This document shows, piece after piece, positions 1 through 32,851 of a DNA stretch of 64,000 nucleotides (positions are counted from its first letter, which is position 1; each line of letters begins with the position of its first letter). The DNA is taken from assembly GCF_014268445.2 (NCBI RefSeq), contig NZ_CP077089.1, forward strand, positions 62,001-126,000. Direction: 5' to 3'. The notes under the pieces were generated by a model. It was not told the DNA's origin. It made no database searches and saw only the letters and a list, made by a program, of their open reading frames with translations. The position numbers were made by a program, and so were the translations under genes. This stretch comes from Pseudomonas tensinigenes. Lineage in GTDB: Bacteria > Pseudomonadota > Gammaproteobacteria > Pseudomonadales > Pseudomonadaceae.

Positions 1-588
1 CACATAGTTTTCCAGCGCGGCCACAAACAGCTCGCCGGTCAGCCGATACTGCTCCAGCCCACCTAGCCCAGCGAAGGCTTGCGCGCGCTGATAACAAAAA
101 TTCTCGGCCGTGTTCATGGTCGGGGTACTTGCCACAACAAGATTTTTCTCACTAATCGACCAGTCCTCAACTCCCTCTAGAACCCAACACGCTTGGCGAG
201 AAAAGTTAAAGATTTTGATGTTGCTGTTACCTGCACGCTTATCAACAACGTTGAAATGACTGTCGTCAACCGCTTCGACTTCGACACCTTCGGTCTTTTC
301 TGTGGCTACGGGTGCCATCAGTGGAAATGCCAACGTCGAGCTCTTAACCCCGGTCGTTTGCGGATCAAAATTTCCGCTCTCCCCGGTAGGTTTCAAAACC
401 AGCGACTTCACCGTCATCGCAGTCAACCGCTGCTGAGTTTCAGCATTCGCAGAAAACGCCGGCAGAAACTGGGAAAAGTCCTCGGACGGACATTCATCCG
501 CATAAACGCTGCCATGAAACAGGCTCAACAGCGACGCGGTGAAAACCGCTATCGCGATGCCATTGCTCTTCTTCAAAACACGATTCAT
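1..588 (-). CDS. Exported protein of unknown function, 3' part missing
   Basis: The reading frame opens with ATG at 588 and stays open to the window edge (196 codons), so the C-terminus is not seen. It starts MNRVLKKSNG, followed by a hydrophobic stretch and a VYA-DE signal-peptidase-like site near residue 30, so the product is probably periplasmic. The mature part has three visible Cys and a CWVLEGVEDWSI segment. It begins only 5 bp after the vgrG stop codon, which suggests one transcript with vgrG. Genes placed directly after vgrG often encode effectors or their periplasmic immunity proteins; the signal peptide favours immunity or an accessory role, but this is inference. I recognise no family. 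Confidence 0.7.
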   Translation of the reverse strand, partial: MNRVLKKSNGIAIAVFTASLLSLFHGSVYADECPSEDFSQFLPAFSANAETQQRLTAMTVKSLVLKPTGESGNFDPQTTGVKSSTLAFPLMAPVATEKTEGVEVEAVDDSHFNVVDKRAGNSNIKIFNFSRQACWVLEGVEDWSISEKNLVVASTPTMNTAENFCYQRAQAFAGLGGLEQYRLTGELFVAALENYV

Positions 589-16307: not shown

Positions 16308-17315
16308 TTAATGAATTTTGCTGCCCAGGGTCACCACGCCGTCCGCTTTTTCGCGGCCCAGCCAACTGGTCCAACCGAGGCGACAGGCGTTCTGCTCACC
16401 GATGCGCAGTTCGCGGATTTCTTCCTGGCGCAGGACCAGGCGAATGTCGTAATCGAGCGGGTCACGCAAGGTGAACCGCACCAGCGCGCAGAGCGGCTGG
16501 TAACCGAAACCGATCGGCAGGAATTCATGGAATCGCTGCCAGTCGAGTTCGGTGATGTGAATGCGGAATTTGCCGCTGCGGTCGCGCACGTGTTCGCCGA
16601 GCACAAGGTCTTCACCGAGCAGGCTGTTGGCGCGGCCCAAACGATTGCGCTGCTCTTCGAGAATTTCTACGCGGCGCTCGATGCACTGCTCGATGACCAG
16701 GTCTTCGTGCTTGAAGTAGTAACGCAGCACGGCTTCGATCAGCGCCGCCGAGTGCGCGCGCAAGCTGAGTAGGCCGAGGTACGGCAGCAAGCGCTTCCAG
16801 TTGAGTTCCTTGGCCTTGCGGATCTCTTCGCCACCGAGGCCGATCAGGGCGAACAGCTGCGACGAGAACGGGTCAATCGCGCCGCTCTGGAAGCTTGCGC
16901 GGTAGCGATACTTGCGCCAGATCGGCAGCATCAGCCGTTGCAGGCGATGGTGGAACAGGTCGAGGAAATTGCGCGTCGGGTTGCCGTCCTCGCTGTCGCC
17001 CAGGGCTTGTTCGCCGTAGAACGCCGGCAACGGCGAACCCGAGCCGACCAGGCCAATCAGGTTGAAACGCATGCGCGCGCGCATCTGCCCGTGCTCTTCG
17101 AAAAACTCGACGCGATCGACGTCGCTGCGCGGAAAGCCCAGGCTCGGGTTGGCCTGAAACTCCACGTGGTCGTACAGATCGTCTTCGCTCAGGTACGGGT
17201 GTGCTTCGCGCAGCCGGTCGATCACCAGCAGCACGGCCTGAAACAGCGAGTACTCGCGTATTACCTTGGTCAGCCCGCTTAAAGCAGGGGCTGCAGGCCC
17301 ATACGTGGTGTCCAT
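16308..17315 (-). CDS. tssG: T6SS baseplate protein TssG
   Basis: Baseplate wedge component that forms a complex with TssF and contacts TssK. The 335-residue protein contains the typical SLFQAVLLVIDRLREA near the start, LGFPRSDVDRVEF, and the Phe/Leu/Gly-rich NLIGLVGSGSPLPAFYGE segment. Its start codon at 17315 lies 37 bp inside the end of tssF; no later ATG precedes the conserved N-terminal region, so the long overlap appears real and implies coupled translation. Length is normal for the family. Confidence 0.95.
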   Translation of the reverse strand: MDTTYGPAAPALSGLTKVIREYSLFQAVLLVIDRLREAHPYLSEDDLYDHVEFQANPSLGFPRSDVDRVEFFEEHGQMRARMRFNLIGLVGSGSPLPAFYGEQALGDSEDGNPTRNFLDLFHHRLQRLMLPIWRKYRYRASFQSGAIDPFSSQLFALIGLGGEEIRKAKELNWKRLLPYLGLLSLRAHSAALIEAVLRYYFKHEDLVIEQCIERRVEILEEQRNRLGRANSLLGEDLVLGEHVRDRSGKFRIHITELDWQRFHEFLPIGFGYQPLCALVRFTLRDPLDYDIRLVLRQEEIRELRIGEQNACRLGWTSWLGREKADGVVTLGSKIH

Positions 17316-19066
17316 TGGTACACCTCTCCCTGTGTGCTTTTTACGCGCAGCTCATGGAATGAATTGAGACTGGCGTAAAGCGCGAAAAACTCGTTAAGAA
17401 CCGAAGCGAAAACGAACAGGTCGCCTTCGCCGATATACCCTTCCGGGTCGATAGTCAGTTCGGTGCGCAGACCGCGCACCGGCAACCCACGGTGCAAGCG
17501 GTCGACGTGATGATGCTTGATGTGCTTGAGGCCGCCGAGCAGGCGTTTGCTGACCTTCTCCGCGTGCTGGTCGTAGTAGCGCGGCAGGTCGTAGGTTTCG
17601 AGAATCACCTTCAATGCATTGACGTCGGCCAGCGACAGATAGTTAAGCGACATGTTGCTGATCAGCTTCCACAGGAAGTCACGGTTCAGCGGTGGCGCGA
17701 AGCTCGACGTGGCCGGGGTGATGTTGCGGAAACTCAAGAACTCGGGCGTCTCTTCGCAGGCCATGCAGATGTCGCCAAGCTTGAGCTTGCGCGGCAGGTT
17801 CTGGTTGGTGCAGATCAGCTCGATCGACAGGGTTTCGTGGGCTTCGGTGTGACGGATGCCGAAGCTCAGGTAGGTGTCGAGGCCGTCGTGCAGCAAGGAC
17901 GAGCGCTGGCGGATGCTGTAATGCGGACGGCTATTGGGCACGTCGAAACTCGGGTCGTGCTCGAAGGATTCGAACGGCACGTATTCCTGATAACCGAGGC
18001 CGCCGGGCTTCCAGCCGGTGACGGTTTCCACCGAGAACACGCCGCAGTTTTCCAGATCGTATTCCGCTGGCAGCAGCAGGTATTCATCTTGCTTGCCGTC
18101 GAGGCGGATCGGCAGCGCGTCGTGGGCGAACAGGTTGGCAATCGGCGTGCAGAACAGCTTCACGTTATCCAGCGTCGGGCGCATGCGCATGATGCCGCTC
18201 TTGCGAATATCGAAGCGCAATTCCAGGCCGCGCATCTGCTTGAGCGTGTCTTCCGGCAGCGCGTTGATGATGTCCAGACCGTTGACGTCGACGAACAGGA
18301 ACTTGTCCTGGAAGGCGAAATATTCCTGCAGGTAGCGATAGCCACGGAAGGTGTTCAGCGGATACGGGATCAACGCCTCTTCTTCGGCAAAGCCCACCGG
18401 TTTGACCCGATCACCGGGAATCTTGAATGCCATCGGCTTGCCGCTGACGCCATCGATGGGTTTGCCGGCACCGTCGAGCGGGATCAACTCGATGCCTTCG
18501 AGGTTGCGCAGCAGGCTCAGGTAGAGCATCTGGCTGATGTAGCGCTCACCGGCAAAGTGCAAACGCAGCTTGCTCAGTTCCAGCTCACCGAGGTGGCCAT
18601 CGGCGCTCATTTCCAGACGCAGGCTGAGCAGCGAGCCGTCGCCCTTCACCGAGTAGTTCAGCGCAGCCAGATCCAGCGGCAACACGTCAGTCGGGTAGCA
18701 GGTGCGGAAGCGGCAACGCACGTCTTCGATCGGTTTGCTTTCAATCGGCGTATCGCGCTCGACGCGCAACGCCGGCCCGGATCGCTTGAGCGGGTCGAAC
18801 TGCAAAATGCTGAACGCCGGCAGCGGGCGCATGTAGTTCGGCCACAGCAGCTGCATCAGCGAATGGCTGAGCTCCGGCAGCTCGTCATCGAGCTTCTGGC
18901 GCAGACGCCCAGTCAGAAACGCAAAGCCTTCGAGCAACCGCTCCACATCCGGATCCCGCCCTGCCTGGCCCAGATACGGCGCCAACGCCGGACTACGCTC
19001 GGCGAAACGGCGACCGAGTTGGCGCAGTGCGGTGAGTTCGCTTTGGTAGTAGTGGTTAAAGGACAC
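17279..19066 (-). CDS. tssF: T6SS baseplate protein TssF
   Basis: Main baseplate wedge protein, 595 residues. It begins MSFNHYYQSELTALRQLGRRFAERSPALAPYLG and contains DPDVERLLEGFAFLTGRLRQ, both hallmarks of the TssF/VasA family, and ends with the beta-rich TIDPEGYIGEGDLFVFASVL region. In canonical HSI-II clusters tssF directly follows tssE; here six small genes intervene (19094-21301). The 27-bp gap from the last of these contains a GGCAGGTACCCCG stretch, a weak ribosome site. The protein itself looks complete and unaltered. Confidence 0.96.
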   Translation of the reverse strand: MSFNHYYQSELTALRQLGRRFAERSPALAPYLGQAGRDPDVERLLEGFAFLTGRLRQKLDDELPELSHSLMQLLWPNYMRPLPAFSILQFDPLKRSGPALRVERDTPIESKPIEDVRCRFRTCYPTDVLPLDLAALNYSVKGDGSLLSLRLEMSADGHLGELELSKLRLHFAGERYISQMLYLSLLRNLEGIELIPLDGAGKPIDGVSGKPMAFKIPGDRVKPVGFAEEEALIPYPLNTFRGYRYLQEYFAFQDKFLFVDVNGLDIINALPEDTLKQMRGLELRFDIRKSGIMRMRPTLDNVKLFCTPIANLFAHDALPIRLDGKQDEYLLLPAEYDLENCGVFSVETVTGWKPGGLGYQEYVPFESFEHDPSFDVPNSRPHYSIRQRSSLLHDGLDTYLSFGIRHTEAHETLSIELICTNQNLPRKLKLGDICMACEETPEFLSFRNITPATSSFAPPLNRDFLWKLISNMSLNYLSLADVNALKVILETYDLPRYYDQHAEKVSKRLLGGLKHIKHHHVDRLHRGLPVRGLRTELTIDPEGYIGEGDLFVFASVLNEFFALYASLNSFHELRVKSTQGEVYQWTPRMGLQPLL

Positions 19067-19093: not shown

Positions 19094-19519
19094 TCAAAAA
19101 AATATCCTGTAGAGCGCGACCGTCACGCCGGCACAGACATAACCGCCAATCAGCAGGAACGGCACAATCGAGATCCAGCCGTACGCCATGTAGGCATCAC
19201 TGAGCTGACCGACGACCAGACTGAGCAAGCCATACAGCATCCATGGCACGGCGTAGAACGGGATGAACTTCACCGGCGCCCACCAAACCATCCGCAATGC
19301 CTGTTGCTCGTTGCGGCTCTGCGCCGATCGGGACATCCACAGCGAAAAGCCCAGAAGCCCGGGAATTCCCCACCACAACAGGTACTGCCAATAAATTCCG
19401 GACGACTCGGGTGTTGAATACTCGCCATTCCACAGGTCATAGGAACTGATCGCCAACACCGCCAGCAATGGCCACCACAATGCAGCCATGAAGAAACTCA
19501 GCTGCGCGCGACTAAGCAT
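19094..19519 (-). CDS. Four-helix membrane protein of unknown function, sixth gene of the insert in the T6SS operon
   Basis: The 141-residue product starts MLSRAQLSFFMAALWWPLLA and has about four hydrophobic segments separated by short polar loops (SYDLWNGEYS, SRSAQSRNEQQ). An upstream in-frame extension of 40 residues is Arg/Ser-rich shadow sequence. The ATG at 19519 overlaps the previous gene by 8 bp, as expected for a coupled start. No family recognised. It is unlike the two paralogous four-helix proteins in the same insert, although it shares size and topology. Polytopic proteins of this size can act as immunity proteins to membrane-acting toxins, which is one possible reading. Confidence 0.75.
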   Translation of the reverse strand: MLSRAQLSFFMAALWWPLLAVLAISSYDLWNGEYSTPESSGIYWQYLLWWGIPGLLGFSLWMSRSAQSRNEQQALRMVWWAPVKFIPFYAVPWMLYGLLSLVVGQLSDAYMAYGWISIVPFLLIGGYVCAGVTVALYRIFF

Positions 19520-19961
19520 GGCTGGCCCCCGAGGCGAGCTTCGCGGCTTTTGTGCCTGCACATTTTCGCTTGTACCAGGCGTCCAGCCCGTGGCTGAGGA
19601 GGATCGCCGCCAATGTGAACGCGCCCTGACCAATGCCATACAACAGCGCCCGCAGCGGGTGATCCGGCAGCATCCAGAACAGCACCAGCGCCACCCAGAT
19701 CGCCCACAGCACCAACTTCACGCGCAGGACCAGAATCATCGCCAGCAGCCAATTGAAAACCAGAAAAAACTCGTAGAGGAATTTGCTGGTCAGGCGAATG
19801 TTCACGCCACGGGAGGTAAGGCTGCCGTAGGTCGAGATGTACCAGTCGGCCGCAAAGTTATTCAGCAACGTGTAGCCGACACAGAAAAAACTGTGGATCA
19901 ACAGGCAGCAGACGATGCGGGCCGGCAGGTTCATGCGCATCTCATTCGGGCCGGCAGTCAT
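19512..19961 (-). CDS. Four-helix membrane protein, paralogue of the gene at 20733
   Basis: About 149 residues with four hydrophobic stretches and a basic C-terminal tail (DAWYKRKCAGTKAAK). It shares a distinctive pattern with the product of 20733-21119: an LNNFA motif in the first loop, GxLTSRGVxI about 15 residues later, an FF..N helix, then LPxxPxRAxxY and a TLxAxLxxH helix. The match over the full length indicates duplication within the operon. The ATG at 19961 overlaps the upstream stop as ATGA; a second ATG two codons upstream is possible. I recognise no named family and cannot assign a function. Confidence 0.78.
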   Translation of the reverse strand: MTAGPNEMRMNLPARIVCCLLIHSFFCVGYTLLNNFAADWYISTYGSLTSRGVNIRLTSKFLYEFFLVFNWLLAMILVLRVKLVLWAIWVALVLFWMLPDHPLRALLYGIGQGAFTLAAILLSHGLDAWYKRKCAGTKAAKLASGASHA

Positions 19962-20353
19962 GGGCAAAACACTCCATCCTTGAGCGTCCAGCTGCGTTGC
20001 AATCCATCGCGCTCGCGTTTGACGCCGAGCAAGGCGTTGCGCATGTCATCGGCACTGACCAAGCGCGTGCGTTCAGGCCCCTTCACGGTGAGCGCATAGC
20101 GACAGCTGACTTGCTCGTCGACGTCTTCGCCGTAGGATCTGTAGCTGGCCACACTGATCCGTTCGCCCGGTGCAACAACACGCGGCTCGATCACTGGCAA
20201 CCAGTTGGTCGAGTGCTGCGTCTGCACTTCAAGCGGCACGCCACAGGTGTTGACCAGGTAAATGTCGTTCATATAAACCAGCTGCGTCGTGCAGCCCGCC
20301 AACAGCAGGCCGGTCAGCGCCGACAGCGATGTCATGCAGGCGCAAAATCTCAC
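19958..20353 (-). CDS. Small lipoprotein of unknown function in the T6SS operon insert
   Basis: The 131-residue product has a lipoprotein signal ending LLLAGC with the acylated Cys at residue 21, followed by Thr-Thr, so outer-membrane sorting is likely. The mature domain (MNDIYLVNTCGVPLEVQTQ, and later QVSCRYALTVKGPE, DGVFCP) is beta-rich with three Cys. The NTCGVPLEV phrase resembles small periplasmic domains that bind partner proteins, but no family is certain. Start and stop each overlap the neighbouring genes by 4 bp. It could pair with the single-pass protein encoded just upstream, or act as a periplasmic immunity factor; both ideas are inference. Confidence 0.78.
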   Translation of the reverse strand: MRFCACMTSLSALTGLLLAGCTTQLVYMNDIYLVNTCGVPLEVQTQHSTNWLPVIEPRVVAPGERISVASYRSYGEDVDEQVSCRYALTVKGPERTRLVSADDMRNALLGVKRERDGLQRSWTLKDGVFCP

Positions 20354-20736
20354 TGAACACGCCCTCCCTTGCTCGCCGTAATCGGCACGTACGAGTCAAT
20401 GAAGAGGTATTCACCGTCGGAAGCGCTGACACGGTTCATCGTCAACGGCTTGCCATCGTGGGTGGCAAAGCGCACCCAGCCTTCCTTGACGAGACTGCCG
20501 CCCTCCGAGCGCACCTCAATGAAGTAGTCCGGCGGCATCGACCGGGTAATTTCGATGAAGTCGCCACCATCCTCGGCACCACGCCATACCGCGTCGGGGT
20601 AGCTGGGCAATACCGGCTTTTTCGAGTGACTCCAGCTCAATTTGATCGCGACCATCACGACCGCAATGATGGCCAATGCTCCGATCAGGCTCAGCAGATG
20701 ATTGAGCCATTTCCAAACACGCACCCATTGCGTCAT
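20350..20736 (-). CDS. Single-pass inner-membrane protein with periplasmic domain, T6SS operon insert
   Basis: The 128-residue protein has an N-terminal cytoplasmic tail (MTQWVRVWKWLNH), one hydrophobic helix around residues 12-32, then a polar domain of about 90 residues that is predicted periplasmic (PSYPDAVWRGAEDGGDFIEI, ending DSYVPITASKGGRVQ). No catalytic motif or known family is recognised. It overlaps the upstream membrane-protein gene and the downstream lipoprotein gene by 4 bp each, so these three are probably made together and could form one envelope complex. Confidence 0.77.
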   Translation of the reverse strand: MTQWVRVWKWLNHLLSLIGALAIIAVVMVAIKLSWSHSKKPVLPSYPDAVWRGAEDGGDFIEITRSMPPDYFIEVRSEGGSLVKEGWVRFATHDGKPLTMNRVSASDGEYLFIDSYVPITASKGGRVQ

Positions 20737-21119
20737 GGCCTACACCCTGTCTCGCTCTGGCGGTTGAACGCGGCGCTGATGTCGTGAGTCACCAGCATCG
20801 CCAACAGCGTCAGACCACCTGCCAATGCGCAATACGCCATGGCGCGAACGGGATACTGCGGCAGCAGGTAAATCAGGATCGCCAACATCATGAAGATCGC
20901 CACACCAAACTTGATGGCGAGGCGATTGATGAACACCAGCACAAGATTCAGCGAAGCGAAAAAGTAAAAAACGAGGTACATGCCCATGCCGATGGCCACG
21001 CCACGGGAGGTCAGCCCGCCCATGAGCTGTTTGTAGACAGGCACGGCAAAGTTGTTGAGCACGATGTAGAGCACGCAGGCCAACGAATGCACGGCCAATC
21101 CAATGAGTCGGCTACCCAT
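20733..21119 (-). CDS. Four-helix membrane protein, paralogue of the gene at 19512
   Basis: The 128-residue polytopic protein begins MGSRLIGLAVHSLACVLYIV and carries the same motif series as its paralogue: LNNFA, GGLTSRGVAI, FFASLN, LPQYPVRAMAY and LTLLAMLVTH. The conserved loops (LTSRG in particular) are stronger than expected from membrane composition alone. Start and stop overlap the neighbours by 1 and 4 bp. No family recognised. The repeat of this gene type on both sides of the single-pass protein and lipoprotein genes suggests that the insert grew by duplication. Confidence 0.78.
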   Translation of the reverse strand: MGSRLIGLAVHSLACVLYIVLNNFAVPVYKQLMGGLTSRGVAIGMGMYLVFYFFASLNLVLVFINRLAIKFGVAIFMMLAILIYLLPQYPVRAMAYCALAGGLTLLAMLVTHDISAAFNRQSETGCRP

Positions 21120-21301
21120 CAGTTTTCCATCACTTTATAGGGGGTGCTCCAGGTCCTGGAGTACTCGTGAGCCAGCCGTGCCGCCGTCGTTTTCACGTAA
21201 CAGGCAGCCGAGAGCAGTGCAGCAACAGCCAGGGCAACAAATAGCAAAGCGCTACGCCCCAACGTTACCAACATGCTCCGGTGAACGGCGCTCTCTCCCA
21301 T
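21119..21301 (-). CDS. Small single-pass membrane protein (60 residues), first gene of the insert
   Basis: The frame starts with ATG at 21301, only 4 bp after the tssE stop codon, and ends by sharing one base with the next gene. The product has one hydrophobic helix (SALLFVALAVAALLSAACYV) and a short polar C-terminus ending YSRTWSTPYKVMEN. The LSAAC could be read as a poor lipobox, but Ser at -3 argues against it. It is small enough to be doubted alone; its exact packing between tssE and the next gene is the main support. It may be a remnant of a longer single-pass protein like the one at 20350. Confidence 0.6.
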   Translation of the reverse strand: MGESAVHRSMLVTLGRSALLFVALAVAALLSAACYVKTTAARLAHEYSRTWSTPYKVMEN

Positions 21302-21305
21302 GGTT

Positions 21306-21713
21306 CTAGTTCACCTTCACTTGTCCGCTGCCATCCAGGCGCGCGGAAAAACTGACCTGACGCTTGAACCCTTCAACTTCCAGCAGGCCTTCGATGCTGA
21401 AGGCCAGGCGAAGTTGATCGTGGTCACGCGGCAGGGAAATGACACGCACATTGCTCAGGCGCGGCTCGTAGGCTTCGATGAAGTTTTCGATGGCCAGACG
21501 GGCCTGACTCAGGGAGTCGTGCAGGCTCAGGCGCATGTCATTGAGATCGGGCAACCCGTAGTCGGCCAGCGTTTGCACGCTGCCGGCCCGGGTGCTGAGC
21601 ATTTTGGCCAGATGGGCAGCCACTGACGCCATGGCACAAGCCTCAAGGCTGTTGCCCTTGCGTAGTTGCGCGTCGCCGTTGAGGCGTTCGAACAGGCTGC
21701 CGTATCCGTCCAT
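21306..21713 (-). CDS. tssE: T6SS baseplate protein TssE (gp25-like)
   Basis: Baseplate subunit homologous to phage T4 gp25, which starts sheath polymerisation. The 135-residue protein begins MDGYGSLFERLNGD, has the conserved NDMRLSLHDSLSQARLAIENFIEAYEPRL segment in its middle (given in part: FIEAYEPRLSNVRV is the EPR core motif of the family) and ends in two beta strands. It lies 10 bp after tssC. In the standard HSI-II order tssF should come next, but here the six-gene insert begins 4 bp after its stop. Confidence 0.93.
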   Translation of the reverse strand: MDGYGSLFERLNGDAQLRKGNSLEACAMASVAAHLAKMLSTRAGSVQTLADYGLPDLNDMRLSLHDSLSQARLAIENFIEAYEPRLSNVRVISLPRDHDQLRLAFSIEGLLEVEGFKRQVSFSARLDGSGQVKVN

Positions 21714-26036: not shown

Positions 26037-28061
26037 ATGTTCGGTACGGGCAATTGCGCGCTGTTTACCCTGCAAATTCCTGCTTTTCGTCACGACTTCA
26101 AGGTGCTTTCGTTCAACGGCGCTGAAGCCGTCAGTCAGCTGTATGTCATCCGTGTCGCACTGGTGAGCGAGCGGACTGATGTCGATCTGGAAGCGTTGCT
26201 AAGCCGACCTGCGTTCCTGCAATTCGGCGCCAATCAGGAAGGCATTCACGGGCGCATCGAAAACGTAATGCTGGCGGAGTTCGGCAAACGCCTGACTCGC
26301 TATGAGCTCACACTGGTGCCCGCGCTGCACTATCTGCAATTCAGTCGCGACCAACGGATTTTTCAGAACCTGACGGTGCCACAAATTGTTGCGCAGGTTC
26401 TGCAACGCCAGGGCATTCAGCCCGATGACTTCACCTTCAATGTCACCACCAGTGCGGTGCGTGAGTACTGTACGCAATACGGCGAGGACGACTTCCGTTT
26501 TATCCAGCGCCTGTGCGCCGAGGACGGCATCGCGTGGCATCACCAGCACTCGGTCGACAGGCATTTGCTGGTGTTCAGCGACAGTCAGGTGTTTTTCCCA
26601 AAATTGGGAGCGACCGCTTTTCAGCCTGACAGCGGCATGGTTGCAGAACATCCGGTGGTCAATCACCTCACCATGGGCTTCAACACTCGCACCAGCACGG
26701 TCACCCGTCGCGACTATGACCTGAAACGCCCGAGCCTGTTGCTGGAGAGTCGCTTCACCGCCGAGTTCACGCCCGAACTTGAAGACTATCGCTATCCGCT
26801 GCTCATGACGTCCGAGAAACACGGCAAACGGCAGGTGCGCCATGCACTGGAGCGGCACCGCAGCGACTATCAATGGATTGAGGGCAAAAGCAATCAGTCG
26901 ACACTGCGCAGCGGTCATCTTTTCGACCTGACCGAACATCCGCGACCGGACTGCAACGAGATGTGGTTGCTGCTGAACATCACTCATGAAGGTAAGCAGC
27001 CCCAAGTGCTGGAAGAGGCTTTCAGCAGCGATGACAAAACGGCTGATGGTTTCACTCAAGGTTATCGCAACACCTTCAAGGCAATCCCGGCCGATGTGCT
27101 CTATCGCCCGCCGCTGCCAGCGCCAAGACCTGTGCTGGTTTGCCAGACCGCGCGAGTCACCGGGCCGCCCGGAAGAGAGACGTTCTGCGACGAATACGGC
27201 AGGGTTCGCGTCGAGTTTCCATGGGACCGGGCAGAACTCGATAACGAGAAGAGCAGTTGCTGGATACGCGTTGCCTCTAGCTGGGCCGGGGAAGGTTTCG
27301 GGGCGATGACCATTCCGCGCATCGGCATGGAAGTGGTCGTGACCTTTCAGGAGGGTGACCCGGATCAACCGCTGATCACCGGGTGCGTGCCCAACAAGGT
27401 CAAATCCCCCGCCCACCCACTGCCGGCCAACGAGACCCGAACGGTGTTGCGCAGCCAGAGCTCTCCGCGCAATGGCGGATACAACGAACTGTCGATCGAA
27501 GACCGTGCAGGCCAGGAGAAAATCTACCTGCGGGCTCAGCGCGATCTGGAACAACTGATCCTTAACGACAGCCACAGCCTGATTACCCGCGACCGCTTCG
27601 AGCAAATTGGCAATGACAGCACCAGCCTGATCGAGGGCAAGACACTGCGCACCCACCACGGAGTGCGAAGTACGCAGATCAACGCCGATGATCTGCTGAC
27701 CGTCAGTGGCATCAGCAGTCACTCGGTTGGAGCGCTGGTGATTCAGGCCGGCCAGCAGGCGCATGTCACCGCGAGCAGCGTGGTGATCGACGCCGGCATG
27801 AGCCTGACGCTGTCGGCGGGTGGGCACCACATCGTCATCAACGCCGGCGGGATTTTCAGCAGCGTGCCCATCGTCGAGGGCGGTGCGCCGTTGGCGGGCA
27901 TCGCGCCACTCCAGCCGCTGCAGGCAGTGGGCGGCATCGCCCCTCCTGTCAGTGCCACACCGCTGTCGATCGTCAACAGTGCTCGCCAGCAAGCGGCGGA
28001 TTATTGCCCGCTGTGCGAAGCCTGTGCGGCTGGGCAGTGCGGCCTGGGAGAAGTCGCATGA
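26037..28061 (+). CDS. vgrG: T6SS spike protein VgrG with Cys-rich C-terminal tail
   Basis: A second VgrG, 674 residues, heading an effector island. The N-terminal gp27-like part (FRHDFKVLSFNGAEAVSQLY), the gp5 core (CDEYGRVRVEFPWDRAELD, SSCWIRVASSWAGEGFG, GMEVVVTFQEGDPDQPLITG) and the beta-helix are intact. It differs from the VgrG at 594 by a longer tail after the helix, rich in Ala and Pro and ending with YCPLCEACAAGQCGLGEVA, where four Cys (657, 660, 663, 668) form CxxCxxCx4C. The ATG at 26037 has AAGGAC 6 bases upstream; an in-frame earlier start lacks this. The stop overlaps the DUF4123 gene as ATGA. Confidence 0.96.
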   Translation: MFGTGNCALFTLQIPAFRHDFKVLSFNGAEAVSQLYVIRVALVSERTDVDLEALLSRPAFLQFGANQEGIHGRIENVMLAEFGKRLTRYELTLVPALHYLQFSRDQRIFQNLTVPQIVAQVLQRQGIQPDDFTFNVTTSAVREYCTQYGEDDFRFIQRLCAEDGIAWHHQHSVDRHLLVFSDSQVFFPKLGATAFQPDSGMVAEHPVVNHLTMGFNTRTSTVTRRDYDLKRPSLLLESRFTAEFTPELEDYRYPLLMTSEKHGKRQVRHALERHRSDYQWIEGKSNQSTLRSGHLFDLTEHPRPDCNEMWLLLNITHEGKQPQVLEEAFSSDDKTADGFTQGYRNTFKAIPADVLYRPPLPAPRPVLVCQTARVTGPPGRETFCDEYGRVRVEFPWDRAELDNEKSSCWIRVASSWAGEGFGAMTIPRIGMEVVVTFQEGDPDQPLITGCVPNKVKSPAHPLPANETRTVLRSQSSPRNGGYNELSIEDRAGQEKIYLRAQRDLEQLILNDSHSLITRDRFEQIGNDSTSLIEGKTLRTHHGVRSTQINADDLLTVSGISSHSVGALVIQAGQQAHVTASSVVIDAGMSLTLSAGGHHIVINAGGIFSSVPIVEGGAPLAGIAPLQPLQAVGGIAPPVSATPLSIVNSARQQAADYCPLCEACAAGQCGLGEVA

Positions 28062-28906
28062 ACCGGGTCGAACTATGGCTGCACGAGCAGTCCCGCGCCG
28101 GACGTGATCTGTTTCTGATGCTCGACTCCGACGGTCAGAGTGAAGCACGCACGGCGCTGGCCGCCGACCTCGGCACTGAGCGATTTCGTCATTTGTACGC
28201 GGGCACGGCGGCTGAGTCATTGGCGCAAACCGGCCCGCTGCTTTTGCAGATCGACACGGCGCGCCACCCCGTCATCCTGTCATTGCTCGACATACCCGAT
28301 CGCCATTGGGGTTGGCTGGCCAGCGCCGAGCATGTCGCTCTGGATGATCTGGCAAGCCATTGGCGCGAGCGCGTGGTGACCGGTGAACGCCCCAACCTGG
28401 CGGTGTATCGCGTGCATGACAACCGCGTGCTCGAACGCGCGCTGGCGCATCTGCAACCCGAGCAATACGCAGCGTTGCTCGGGCCGGTCAGCAGCATCTG
28501 TTACTGGCATGCCGGGCAATGGAACGTCGCCGACAACCCGGAACCCGGCGAACACCCGCTGCCCATCGACCCACCATGGCTGCAGACGCCCATACCGGAG
28601 CTGATTTACGCCAACGTGCTGTTCGACAACGCCCGACGCTATCTGGTGGGTGAGCACACTGAAGCGATGGCCAAGCTAGCGGAGCAACTCGACATGGATG
28701 ACTGGCTGTGGGGACAGATTCAGCTGACGCGCCTGTGGGGCTGGCAGCAACCGGAGCAAGTGCACTTTTTGCTGACCCAAAGTCTTCAGCTAACGGGGTA
28801 TGTGCCGCCCAGGTCATGGTCGCCGAAACCTGAAGAAGACCCGACGGCGCATTTTGAGCGGGTGTATCAGCAGGTGCTGTATTGGCAGGAGAGCGGCCCC
28901 CTATGA
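28058..28906 (+). CDS. DUF4123 family T6SS effector adaptor/chaperone
   Basis: DUF4123 proteins (Tap-1/TEC) bind a specific effector and load it on the VgrG encoded beside it. The 282-residue protein starts MNRVELWLHEQSRAGRDLFL and carries the family features: an N-terminal LFLMLDSDGQ strand, a GPLLLQID motif, PVILSLLDIPDRHWGWLAS and the FRVYD-like region (LAVYRVHDNRVLERAL) followed by LGPVSSICYW. The ATG at 28058 overlaps the vgrG stop and is preferred over an upstream frame extension inside vgrG. It overlaps the following lipoprotein gene by 4 bp. Cargo is most likely the lipase encoded two genes downstream. Confidence 0.9.
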   Translation: MNRVELWLHEQSRAGRDLFLMLDSDGQSEARTALAADLGTERFRHLYAGTAAESLAQTGPLLLQIDTARHPVILSLLDIPDRHWGWLASAEHVALDDLASHWRERVVTGERPNLAVYRVHDNRVLERALAHLQPEQYAALLGPVSSICYWHAGQWNVADNPEPGEHPLPIDPPWLQTPIPELIYANVLFDNARRYLVGEHTEAMAKLAEQLDMDDWLWGQIQLTRLWGWQQPEQVHFLLTQSLQLTGYVPPRSWSPKPEEDPTAHFERVYQQVLYWQESGPL

Positions 28907-29694
28907 GACGTGCATTTCAATATCTGGCACTTGGCAGTTGCACTGCATTGATCCTGGGCTGCTCTGCGGTTGGTACGCCGAACACGTTTACCTTTGTTCC
29001 TGACTTTCCACCCAACTTCAAGTACGACCTGACGGCCACCTATGTGCCCGCCAAAGATCAAACATGCTCGGTACCCGGTGGAAAAGGTACTCAGCTTGGG
29101 TTCAACAAAACCAACATGAAACACGCAGGCACTTCCGTAGTCCCGCTTTACAGAACCGTAAGCGACTGCCCGCTGGCGCTGAACCATGTGGAGATCAAGG
29201 TCATCGGTGTTTTTGGCCCCGGACGAAGTAACAGCAGCTATGACTACGCCTCATTTGCAGTGCGTCCAGAGTTGCTGGAGCGACAAATGGGTAGTTTCAG
29301 AGATGACGAGACAGCTGAGTTCATCGGTGAGTGTATGTGGTTTTTTCGCACCGTCAGTCCCAAGCGTTACCTCATAAAAATGTTGAGATGCAAAAAAATG
29401 GATGAGCAGGGCAATGTTGGACAAAGCCGCCCCTCCACGGCGTACACGCTGACTCAGCTAGCGGGAATAACCGTAAGGCTGAAGATCAAGTTGGCTGATG
29501 AAGAAAGGCCCGGCTGGGGTGACACCTGGGTTGAAGTTCCCGGTGGCTGGAAGCGCTGTTTGGGTGAAGGTATGGAGGATCAGCGTGGTTACTGCAATGG
29601 GAATTACAAGGACTTCAGCACCTTCAGGATGGTGGATGAGCGCATTTGCACAATTTATCCGGGGTGTACTGAGAATAAGGAAGAAACTCCATGA
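28903..29694 (+). CDS. Lipoprotein, candidate immunity protein of the adjacent lipase effector
   Basis: The 263-residue product begins MRRAFQYLALGSCTALILGC, a lipoprotein signal with acylated Cys20 followed by Ser-Ala, so outer-membrane placement is expected. The mature part has several further Cys (for example DQTCSVPGG, SDCPLAL, GECMWFF, GYCNGNY, RICTIYPGC), suggesting disulphides in the periplasm. I recognise no named family. It sits between the adaptor and the lipase, overlapping each by 4 bp. Periplasmic lipoproteins beside T6SS lipases (Tli proteins) usually block the cognate toxin, so immunity is the simplest reading, not proven by sequence. Confidence 0.85.
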   Translation: MRRAFQYLALGSCTALILGCSAVGTPNTFTFVPDFPPNFKYDLTATYVPAKDQTCSVPGGKGTQLGFNKTNMKHAGTSVVPLYRTVSDCPLALNHVEIKVIGVFGPGRSNSSYDYASFAVRPELLERQMGSFRDDETAEFIGECMWFFRTVSPKRYLIKMLRCKKMDEQGNVGQSRPSTAYTLTQLAGITVRLKIKLADEERPGWGDTWVEVPGGWKRCLGEGMEDQRGYCNGNYKDFSTFRMVDERICTIYPGCTENKEETP

Positions 29695-32027
29695 GCATGG
29701 AATCTTTAGAGACGAATGTTGCGATTTTTATGCAGGGCAACATCCACGCCTGCCCCAAGCGCGGGCATTCGACCAGTTTTCAATTGGTGGATGAGCTTGG
29801 TAACGGCAAACCCTATGCGGGCTTGACATACGAAATCATCGATTATGAAGATACCGTCTACGCCGGAAAACTGGATGTCAAAGGTTGCGGCAAGGTAGAT
29901 AACCATTACTGCGGCCCATTAATACTCAAGCTCAGTCAGCCTTTCACAGGAACAGAAGCGCTCTATAAAGATTTGAGGGCAAGGGAGCACTACCCCCTGC
30001 CCATCACCGAACTCCAGGTGCGCGCCGAAAAAACCCGGTTCTTCAACAAATCAGGTGTACGCACCCAAGCCAATCCTGCAAAAGACCTTGCGGCAAACGC
30101 TGCCTATTACCAGGTTGAAGTGAGCGAACTGGTCAAGCATATAGCGCACTTGCCGCCCTTGGCCCAGCGTAGTGATCCGCCGAATATGGTGGTTCACAAA
30201 CTCATGCGATCCGCACACAAAACCAGATCCTTTGCGCAGGTTGATGCAAGTGTCCCGGATAAAGGGGCAAGCGCGATCTTCAGTCAGGAAGACCGGGGCA
30301 TGGTGGAGTTGGGTTTTTCTCCACCCCCGCCCAAACTTACAGGCATTGCCTTGCTGCCTAACAAACATCATGTGCTGGAGGTGCGCCCCATGAGGGCATT
30401 GCGCCCGATGCTGTCGACGAGCAACGAATTCTGCGCACTCAACCTTTATCAACTGTCATTGATGGCCACCCTTAGTTACACCGATTTTGGCCAGGAGCCG
30501 AACACCCAACCGGTGAAGACCGACAGCGTGAGCTTCCCCTTGCAGCCCAGCAGCGGCAATTGGTTTGGCCATGCTCTGCCGCAGTTTGATGAGTTGTGGA
30601 AAGTCGATGCGTCGCAAACGAAGAAGTACTACCCGTTGTATGAAGAAGTCCCTTACTCGAAACGGCTGGAAGTGGTGCCGTTCGATCCACAGCACTACTC
30701 CGAGGTGAATGATCCAGCATTGGGGGATGAACAGGAACATCCGGCCAAGCTGCACTTTTTCGATGATCGCAAACAAGCCGACAGTACGGACACCCAGGCC
30801 TTTATTACGCATCACGACGAGTTGATATTGATCAGTGTCCGGGGAACCAGTGAAGTGTTACCCGATGGCCTGCGTGATGGAGACGCCTACCAGGTTCCTT
30901 TTCAAGAAGGAGAAGGCAAGGTGCACCGTGGCTTCTACGGCGGTGCCCAAGCGGTTTACCCGTTTGTGGTGAGTTATCTGGAGCGATTCTACAGCGGGCA
31001 AAAACTGCTGATTACTGGACACAGCCTGGGCGGGGCAATCGCACTGATATTGTCGGAGATGCTGCGACGCGATCCACAGTACTTAACGCAGATCGTTCTC
31101 TACACCTACGGCGCCCCTCGCGCCGGCGACACCACTTTCATCGAAAGCGCCCAGCCACTGATCCACCATCGCATCGTCAACCAGAACGACCCTGTACCCA
31201 GCGTACCCGCCACATGGATGAATACCTTCGCCAATCCAAAGCCAATGTATATCGCCAACGGTGCAGTGCTGGTTATTACACCGGCCGCCGGTTTTGCCTT
31301 GCTTGTCTGGGGAATGACCAACTTCTTCGGTGACGATTACGGCCATCACGGCGCGCTGCACCACTTCATGCCAGTGGTGTTTGGCAAGGAACACCAGTCA
31401 TCCATTCTCTGGCAGCCGGGCTGCAGCATCATCAACGATCACGGCTGCGCCGAAGCCTTGCGAAATATCAATGGCTTGCCCAAACGCGGCGCTTTTCTGA
31501 AGCAGCTCTTCGCGGCAGGCGATCACTCGATGGTCGGCAGCTACATCCCCGGCTGCTGGGCAAGCCTGCGCCGCTGGCAAGAGGCGCAGCAGCTCAATCG
31601 CTCGTTGGTCACACCACGGGAGTTCGAATGGGTCAGCGGCGCATTGGAAAATATCAGAAAGCAACTGCGTGCCGTTGAGCGCGAGATCCAGGCTCACCCC
31701 AGCGCCTATGTCCGTCACCAGGAAAGAAATCACAAAACCACGGTTCTCAACAATGAAATAGACAAAATCAAAATGACCCAGGCGCGCCTGGTCGACCTGC
31801 GCGGCCAGCGGGTCACCGAAGCCGACGTTTACGGCAGCTACGCCGACCAGCCCGAGTGGGTGCAGGAAAACCTGCTGCGCTGGAACGCTCACCCGGAAAA
31901 CCTCGTTCAGGAACAACTGGCGATGATTCCGACAGCCGCCGAAGACCACGATGCCGCTATTGCCGCAATGACCGGTGGGCATGCCGTTGGCGCGCCGTTT
32001 CAGCTGGATATTGATTCGATTGTGTAG
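29691..32027 (+). CDS. T6SS lipase effector, class-3 lipase fold (Tle-like)
   Basis: The 778-residue protein has three parts. Residues 1-110 (with GNIHACPKRGHSTSFQLVDE and GLTYEIIDYEDTVYAGKLD) look like the N-terminal domain found on VgrG-linked effectors. The middle carries the alpha/beta-hydrolase nucleophile elbow TGHSLGG with Ser445, a NDPVPSVP motif with Asp500 and a His-rich HHGALHHF around 551-558, which can complete the triad as in class-3 lipases. A hydrophobic segment at about 523-546 (AVLVITPAAGFALLVWG) lies between the Asp and His. The C-terminus (from about 640) is helical and charged. Phospholipid hydrolysis in the prey periplasm is inferred from the Tle families; the exact Tle class (Tle2-like by motif) is uncertain. 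Confidence 0.9.
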   Translation: MSMESLETNVAIFMQGNIHACPKRGHSTSFQLVDELGNGKPYAGLTYEIIDYEDTVYAGKLDVKGCGKVDNHYCGPLILKLSQPFTGTEALYKDLRAREHYPLPITELQVRAEKTRFFNKSGVRTQANPAKDLAANAAYYQVEVSELVKHIAHLPPLAQRSDPPNMVVHKLMRSAHKTRSFAQVDASVPDKGASAIFSQEDRGMVELGFSPPPPKLTGIALLPNKHHVLEVRPMRALRPMLSTSNEFCALNLYQLSLMATLSYTDFGQEPNTQPVKTDSVSFPLQPSSGNWFGHALPQFDELWKVDASQTKKYYPLYEEVPYSKRLEVVPFDPQHYSEVNDPALGDEQEHPAKLHFFDDRKQADSTDTQAFITHHDELILISVRGTSEVLPDGLRDGDAYQVPFQEGEGKVHRGFYGGAQAVYPFVVSYLERFYSGQKLLITGHSLGGAIALILSEMLRRDPQYLTQIVLYTYGAPRAGDTTFIESAQPLIHHRIVNQNDPVPSVPATWMNTFANPKPMYIANGAVLVITPAAGFALLVWGMTNFFGDDYGHHGALHHFMPVVFGKEHQSSILWQPGCSIINDHGCAEALRNINGLPKRGAFLKQLFAAGDHSMVGSYIPGCWASLRRWQEAQQLNRSLVTPREFEWVSGALENIRKQLRAVEREIQAHPSAYVRHQERNHKTTVLNNEIDKIKMTQARLVDLRGQRVTEADVYGSYADQPEWVQENLLRWNAHPENLVQEQLAMIPTAAEDHDAAIAAMTGGHAVGAPFQLDIDSIV

Positions 32028-32575: not shown

Positions 32576-32851
32576 TTATGGATTAACGCTGTCTTTCAAC
32601 GACTTGCCTGGCTTGAACGCAACGGTGTTGCTGGCCTTGATTTTGACCGGTTCGCCGGTCTGCGGGTTTTTGCCGGTGCGGGCGCCGCGGTGGCGTTGCA
32701 GGAAGGTGCCGAAGCCGACCAGCGTCACGCTGTCCTTGCGGTGCAGAGCGCCGGTGATTTCTTCGAGAACGGCGTTGAGTACGCGGTTGGCCTGTTCTTT
32801 GGTCAGATCTGCTTTTTCAGCGATTGCAGCGGCGAGTTCTGGTTTACGCAT
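32576..32851 (-). CDS. hupA: HU-family DNA-binding protein
   Basis: A 91-residue histone-like nucleoid protein that binds and bends DNA as a dimer. It begins MRKPELAAAIAEKADLTKEQ and has the HU signature region GFGTFLQRHRGARTGKNPQTG with the conserved Pro-containing beta arm, ending AFKPGKSLKDSVNP. The gene neighbours the rubredoxin genes as in other Pseudomonas chromosomes, which suggests the hupA copy rather than hupB or hupN. An AGGGG ribosome site precedes the start. Confidence 0.93.
   Translation of the reverse strand: MRKPELAAAIAEKADLTKEQANRVLNAVLEEITGALHRKDSVTLVGFGTFLQRHRGARTGKNPQTGEPVKIKASNTVAFKPGKSLKDSVNP

Follow-up and report, generated by a model that had tools for sequence, protein, structure and literature searches.

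A probable orphan immunity array in the exchangeable tssE-tssF slot of a Pseudomonas tensinigenes type VI secretion operon

Introduction

A close counterpart of the arrangement treated here is found in Vibrio cholerae, in which the effectors of the type VI secretion system (T6SS) are displaced by incoming effector-immunity modules and the orphan immunity genes remain as arrays (Kirchberger et al. 2017, PMC5361080). In this line, orphan immunity genes of the recombinase-associated acquired interbacterial defence (rAID) arrays of Bacteroidales were shown to be protective against T6SS effectors (PMC12247911), and similar protection has been proposed for an immunity islet of S. Typhi (PMC7400221). 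Within Pseudomonas, the table of the Hcp secretion island II (HSI-II) of P. syringae DC3000 gives tssF2, PSPTO_5646, PSPTO_5645, the PAAR gene PSPTO_5430 and tssE2, where PSPTO_5645-PSPTO_5646 were proposed as an effector/immunity pair and a PSPTO_5646 mutant was not obtainable (PMC7283901); in the F1-T6SS of P. fluorescens F113, tae4-tai4 are located within the core, after hcp and ahead of tssE (PMC7970981). The present work deals with six small frames, X1 to X6, lying between tssE and tssF in a stretch of 64,000 nucleotides of Pseudomonas tensinigenes (contig NZ_CP077089.1, positions 62,001 to 126,000; hereafter the window), for which a preliminary description had left the choice between an immunity bank against membrane-acting T6SS toxins and an accessory envelope complex of the apparatus. 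The comparisons made here render it very probable that the block is an effector-less array of orphan immunity genes, occupying an exchangeable PAAR-effector-immunity slot of an HSI-II-type T6SS.

The locus and its six frames

The window comes from a complete genome of 6.62 Mb, and the block belongs to a minus-strand operon with the order tssA, tssB, tssC, tssE, the slot, tssF, tssG, tssH and a sigma-54 regulator, followed by FHA, tssJ, tssK, tssL, tssM, a PP2C phosphatase, a kinase and vgrG. The operon was classed as HSI-II-like by the HSI-II gene order; that of DC3000 is also available in print (PMC7283901). The borders of the slot and its contents are as follows.

tssE, 21306-21713, minus strand: PF04965, E 2e-17; upstream border of the slot.
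X1, 21119-21301, minus strand: 60 amino acids (aa); F/G deletion scar as judged by alignment, probably not functional.
X2, 20733-21119, minus strand: 128 aa; polytopic, family A; probable orphan immunity to T4-class effectors.
X3, 20350-20736, minus strand: 128 aa; family B; probable orphan immunity to TseH-like (PF25218) or Tae4 (PF14113) effectors.
X4, 19958-20353, minus strand: 131 aa, GTG start; lipoprotein, family C; probable orphan immunity to T5.
X5, 19512-19961, minus strand: 149 aa; another member of family A, paralogous to X2.
X6, 19094-19519, minus strand: 141 aa; polytopic, family D; possible orphan immunity to T8, the weakest assignment.
tssF, 17279-19066, minus strand: PF05947, E 8e-144; downstream border of the slot.

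These six frames, with overlaps of 1, 4, 4, 4 and 8 bp between successive members, were recovered exactly as first described. Their envelope character was largely borne out by hydropathy: X1 and X3 have one hydrophobic segment each (in X3 it is N-terminal and precedes a soluble domain), X2 and X5 have several, and the N-terminal hydrophobic segment of X4 ends in LLAGC, which we take to be a lipobox. The fourth helix once ascribed to X6 was not confirmed, three hydrophobic regions being clear at the threshold used. No match above the curated cut-offs of Pfam and NCBIfam was obtained for any of X1 to X6, a PADLOC search of the six gave a single weak match (E 0.52), and no recombinase match was found among the six frames that fill 19094-21301. 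Two features had not been noticed before, namely the chimeric nature of X1 and the paralogy of X2 and X5, which share 37% identity over 114 aa and were the only matches of a genome search with X2 at E<=10. The array places different immunity families in tandem, in the order A, B, C, A and D, next to an F/G remnant.

An exchangeable slot between tssE and tssF

The interval was compared with that of other Pseudomonas, as the preliminary description had proposed. Of 298 genomes of the genus, 45 have relatives of X2, the window's own among them, and the surroundings read in the other 44 amount to 45 regions (one genome gave two), 25 of which have the X2 relative placed between tssE and tssF. To avoid a choice of loci based on X2, a search with TssE was used, which at E<=1e-30 matched 166 of the 298 genomes; the 84 loci with the best TssE ranks were completed, adding 60 regions, and together with two lower-ranked loci of the X2 set (L073 and L076; L numbers denote loci and G numbers genomes) they make up the 86 slots read, the TssE loci of about half of the 166 genomes ranking below them. 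Slot content was identified with profiles built from the slot frames themselves.

Sixty-three of the 86 slots are filled, holding 1.6-4.8 kb, and the other 23 measure less than 0.5 kb (61 and 23, respectively, when only the 84 loci taken by TssE rank are counted). The earlier statement that tssE is followed by tssF in HSI-II therefore holds for 23 loci and fails for those with a filled interval. Gene content and order vary even among loci whose TssE is 95-100% identical, and presence conserved together with the apparatus, the mark of a core or accessory T6SS component, is not what was observed, the slots being either short or variable. The tssE-tssF interval of these HSI-II loci is an exchangeable slot.

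The usual order in filled slots is a PAAR gene, an effector and then 1-9 recognised small genes, with an F gene ahead of PAAR in L042, L070, L099 and L116. A PAAR frame is present in 59 of the 63, fragments included (PF05488 was matched in both frames tested), and 56 have a recognised effector, beside or fused to the PAAR gene, followed by small genes. The remaining seven (the window, L035, L036, L040, L051, L061 and L113) hold immunity-type genes and no recognised complete effector; a PAAR piece is kept in L040, L051 and L113, the last also with a T8 remnant, and the window slot has neither PAAR nor effector. A named example of this kind is Pseudomonas sp. dw_612 (L161), with families A, E and D. 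At the other extreme, the 361-bp intervals of L115 and L120 contain nothing but a truncated PAAR frame and are collapsed cassettes.

Class-specific pairing of effectors and immunity families

A pairing was defined as the family found directly after the effector in the 56 slots with a recognised effector. The classes and their partners are listed below.

T1: no Pfam match; followed by H73 in 2/2 slots.
T2: no Pfam match; followed by family E in 6/6 slots.
T3: DUF6402, PF19940; followed by family F (9) or family G (15) in 24/24 slots.
T4: no match above cut-off; followed by family A (X2/X5) in 7/7 slots.
T5: fusion of PAAR to a part that carries an HEFGH motif and, by eye, looks metallopeptidase-like; followed by family C (X4) in 6/6 slots.
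TseH-like: PF25218, E 2.7e-23; followed by family B (X3) in 3/3 slots.
Tae4: PF14113; followed by family B (X3) in 1/1 slot (L145).
T7: alpha/beta-hydrolase-like, below cut-off; followed by K (4) or J (1) in 5 slots.
T8: no match above cut-off; followed by family D (X6) in 2/2 slots.

Each family of X2 to X6 is therefore found elsewhere directly 3' of a PAAR-linked effector (A in 7 slots, B in 4, C in 6 and D in only 2), which supports the reading as an immunity bank. Dereplication at 80% effector identity left 38 of the 56 loci, 27 of them with at least two families behind the effector, and in 26 of these 27 the partner of the class came first; in 20,000 within-array shuffles of gene order it did so in 12.0 on average and in 23 at most. 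The first immunity family goes with the effector class. The membrane-acting nature once supposed for the toxins stands only in part, as TseH-like effectors, Tae4 and a PAAR-metallopeptidase-like protein are also among the partners. To our knowledge no function has been assigned to T4, DUF6402, the PAAR-metallopeptidase-like protein or T8, the literature having been searched for DUF6402 only.

Toxins sought in the window's own genome

A first alternative is that these genes are not orphans at all and are cognate to effectors encoded elsewhere in the genome, which does carry a second T6SS and ten PF05488 matches at eight places, none of them in the window. Whole-genome searches nevertheless failed to find T4, the peptidase part of T5, TseH, T8 or DUF6402, as expected for an immunity bank, although a diverged toxin could fall below detection in such searches. 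The same queries matched their positive controls in 4/4 (T4), 4/4 (T5), 3/3 (TseH), 3/3 (T8) and 4/4 (DUF6402) control genomes, those for T5 and T8 including the genome of the query itself and the third T8 control (G139) being a weak remnant match. Tae4, which is paired with family B in L145, as well as T1, T2 and T7, were sought without positive control in 119 kb of the genome, including the PAAR places, and were not found there. Altogether, with Tae4 covered in those 119 kb, cognate effectors elsewhere in the genome are improbable.

Scars, head swaps and fused antidotes

The history of the slot can be read in part from its remains. The first part of X1 and the F protein of L042 share 71% identity over 42 aa, and the DNA spanning the start of X1 and the end of tssE matches L036 and L042 at 87% over 212-213 bp; the last codons of X1, immediately ahead of X2, match the 3' end of the L036 G gene, and the DNA between the F-like and G-like parts is missing in the window. 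On these alignments, X1 is a deletion scar in which the start of an F gene has been joined to the end of a G gene, and no independent gene. L036 itself has a shortened F gene. The array of the window is a mosaic, its different segments being closest to different slots.

A shared tail behind different heads was looked for in one pair of loci from outside the window, P. lini DSM 16768 (L158) and P. mandelii 29 (L159). Over 3,827 bp, comprising the tail B-A-H73-A-D and the tssF side, the two loci are 96.7% identical, whereas the heads differ, with F, PAAR, DUF6402 and G in L158 and PAAR, T4 and A in L159; within the PAAR part a stretch of 341 bp matches at 93%. This pair is a head swap with a retained immunity tail.

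Fused antidotes were also seen. At L037:9893-10675 a membrane protein of family A runs on into an F-family domain, the fusion being 39% identical to the F protein of L042 over 102 aa, and A-F fusions were also seen by eye in L035, L036, L038 and L039. Family A is moreover fused to an I228-like domain in L061 and L045, in opposite orders (L045 by eye).

Immunity families at a site that lacks T6SS core genes

Immunity arrays drawn from families D, H73, E, A and G were also found in L043-L046, and a single A gene in L049, with no T6SS core genes within the 11-20 kb read around them in these five genomes. Four of the five stretches extend from an HU gene to SCP2-like/HDOD/RecG genes, and on the L043 contig the SCP2-like side alone is visible. 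Three genomes (G007, G076 and G096) gave no TssE match at E<=1e-30, and G226 and G015 have a match elsewhere, with short slots (L127 and L128). In the window's genome, the corresponding site is occupied by the T6SS island, between the following flanks.

HU gene, window 32579-32851: one flank of the T6SS island.
SCP2-like gene, L157:1174-1545: the other flank, ~49 kb from HU.

Relatives (29-32% identity) of a 326-aa protein from the L043-L046 arrays are located at window 1-492 (minus strand), L157:17576-18493 and L157:10392-11360, next to that end of the window's T6SS island where vgrG lies.

Constraint on X2 to X6

Pairwise ratios of nonsynonymous to synonymous substitution rates (dN/dS) for X2 to X6 range from 0.04 to 0.42 in the 24 of 31 comparisons listed here: 0.17-0.42 for X2 (7 comparisons), 0.21-0.29 for X3 (3), 0.25 for X4 (1), 0.24-0.36 for X5 (5) and 0.04-0.24 for X6 (best 8 of 15). 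These are simple pairwise estimates, some with a high dS and some perhaps between paralogues. They indicate constraint and not its cause, and X2 to X6 behave as real genes.

Such values bear on a second alternative, that of decaying leftovers without present function, the toxin being lost and the immunity genes drifting. The clear scar of X1, the loss of PAAR and effector and the two short slots reduced to a truncated PAAR frame would all fit it; yet X2 to X6 are intact frames with low dN/dS, seven of the 63 filled slots keep immunity-type genes without a recognised complete effector, and arrays persist at the HU site where T6SS core genes are lacking. Plain decay is about as unlikely as a set of cognate effectors elsewhere.

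Proposed course of events and its weighing

In the relatives the slot carries a PAAR tip gene together with an effector and the immunity gene cognate to it, and presumably it did so in the ancestors. The effector head may then be swapped by recombination through the conserved 5' side, formed by tssE and the PAAR-coding region, with the older immunity genes left behind downstream at each swap. In the source strain the head is missing as well, and one deletion has fused an F and a G gene into X1. Constraint is apparent for X2 to X5, and probably for X6, and their position makes it probable that they are produced together with the T6SS operon. Most likely they reside in the envelope, each blocking one class of toxin delivered by related strains, with X2 and X5 directed against T4-type effectors, X3 against TseH-like or Tae4 effectors, X4 against the PAAR-metallopeptidase-like protein and X6 against T8.

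Several points weigh against an orphan immunity array. The map from class to family was learned from the very loci on which it was tested, with two partners allowed for T3, and those loci and genomes are related; in one of the 27 multi-family slots, L107, the modal partner is not first. Family B also follows Tae4, which was sought in 119 kb of the genome, and X3 may for that reason not be an orphan; X4 has only one close relative for dN/dS. For X6, the pairing of family D comes from two slots whose effectors are 93% identical, plus the L113 remnant, and D is usually the final gene before tssF, which means that it could be a fixed neighbour; in favour of its assignment are L116, in which D does not come last, and L113, in which it adjoins the T8 remnant. 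Finally, protection by X2 to X6 is something we infer from genomic context.

The least likely alternative, an accessory envelope complex in which the six proteins join TssJLM and tune or stabilise the T6SS, draws on their small size and envelope character, their overlapping frames inside the core operon and the position of family D, which has the lowest dN/dS and usually adjoins tssF, but is hard to reconcile with 23 of 86 slots under 0.5 kb, with content and order that differ at 95-100% TssE identity, with families that track specific toxins and with the occurrence of these families at a site that lacks T6SS core genes.

Beyond the orphan array as such, we lean towards a broader reading, in which this part of a core operon has turned into a purely defensive recording slot, where each exchange of the PAAR-led cassette between tssE and tssF leaves an antidote and where the toxin has been dropped and antidotes to several classes kept. 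If this were true, the fused antidotes (A-F and I-A) and the HU-site arrays would represent further stages. In any case, anonymous membrane-protein genes become predicted antidotes whose toxin partners can be named or defined. Moreover, a single slot followed across the genus offers a natural series, densely sampled, in which heads are swapped, genes scarred or fused and effectors lost, and the inclusion in that series of sites that keep antidotes without T6SS core genes makes the selective retention of orphan immunity directly testable.

Neighbouring genes

Other genes near the T6SS operon are mentioned as separate observations.

Window 29691-32027, plus strand: 778-aa Lipase_3 (Tle-like) protein.
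Window 28882-29694, plus strand: 270-aa frame without Pfam match, ahead of the Lipase_3 gene.
Window 26199-28220, minus strand: 673-aa protein without Pfam match, adjoining tssA.

The first two perhaps represent another effector with its accessory or immunity gene. Relatives of the 673-aa protein lie beside tssA in L042, L047, L051 and L053.

Comparison with known systems

No description of the tssE-tssF interval as an immunity array was found in the open-licence literature of PubMed Central. The same slot is seen in P. syringae DC3000, but the available part of that report describes a single putative pair there, with an effector called endonuclease-like, and no array (PMC7283901). The tae4-tai4 genes of P. 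fluorescens F113 resemble the window slot in placing effector and immunity genes among core genes, and differ from it in belonging to another T6SS group and position and in forming a cognate pair and not an orphan array (PMC7970981). As for the effectors themselves, TseH-like (PF25218) and Tae4 (PF14113) proteins are encoded in the slots of relatives and are directly followed there by the family of X3.

The rAID arrays go with a recombinase (PMC12247911), whereas none was matched among the six frames of the window; the HU-site arrays of L043-L046 are closer to them and to the S. Typhi islet than the window slot is. With V. cholerae the window shares a tandem array of different immunity families within a T6SS cluster, homologous to the cognate immunity genes of other strains (PMC5361080). 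The V. cholerae arrays occupy the 3' region of the clusters, whereas the slot of the window is located inside the core operon between baseplate genes; in addition, the Pseudomonas slot usually carries PAAR, that of the window has lost its effector, and the resemblance is one of arrangement. The comparison suggests that a Vibrio-type displacement also works inside a T6SS core operon of Pseudomonas, where immunity would probably be co-expressed with the weapon. By analogy, the process most likely matches the displacement model of V. cholerae, the new elements being the location in the core operon and the missing effector.

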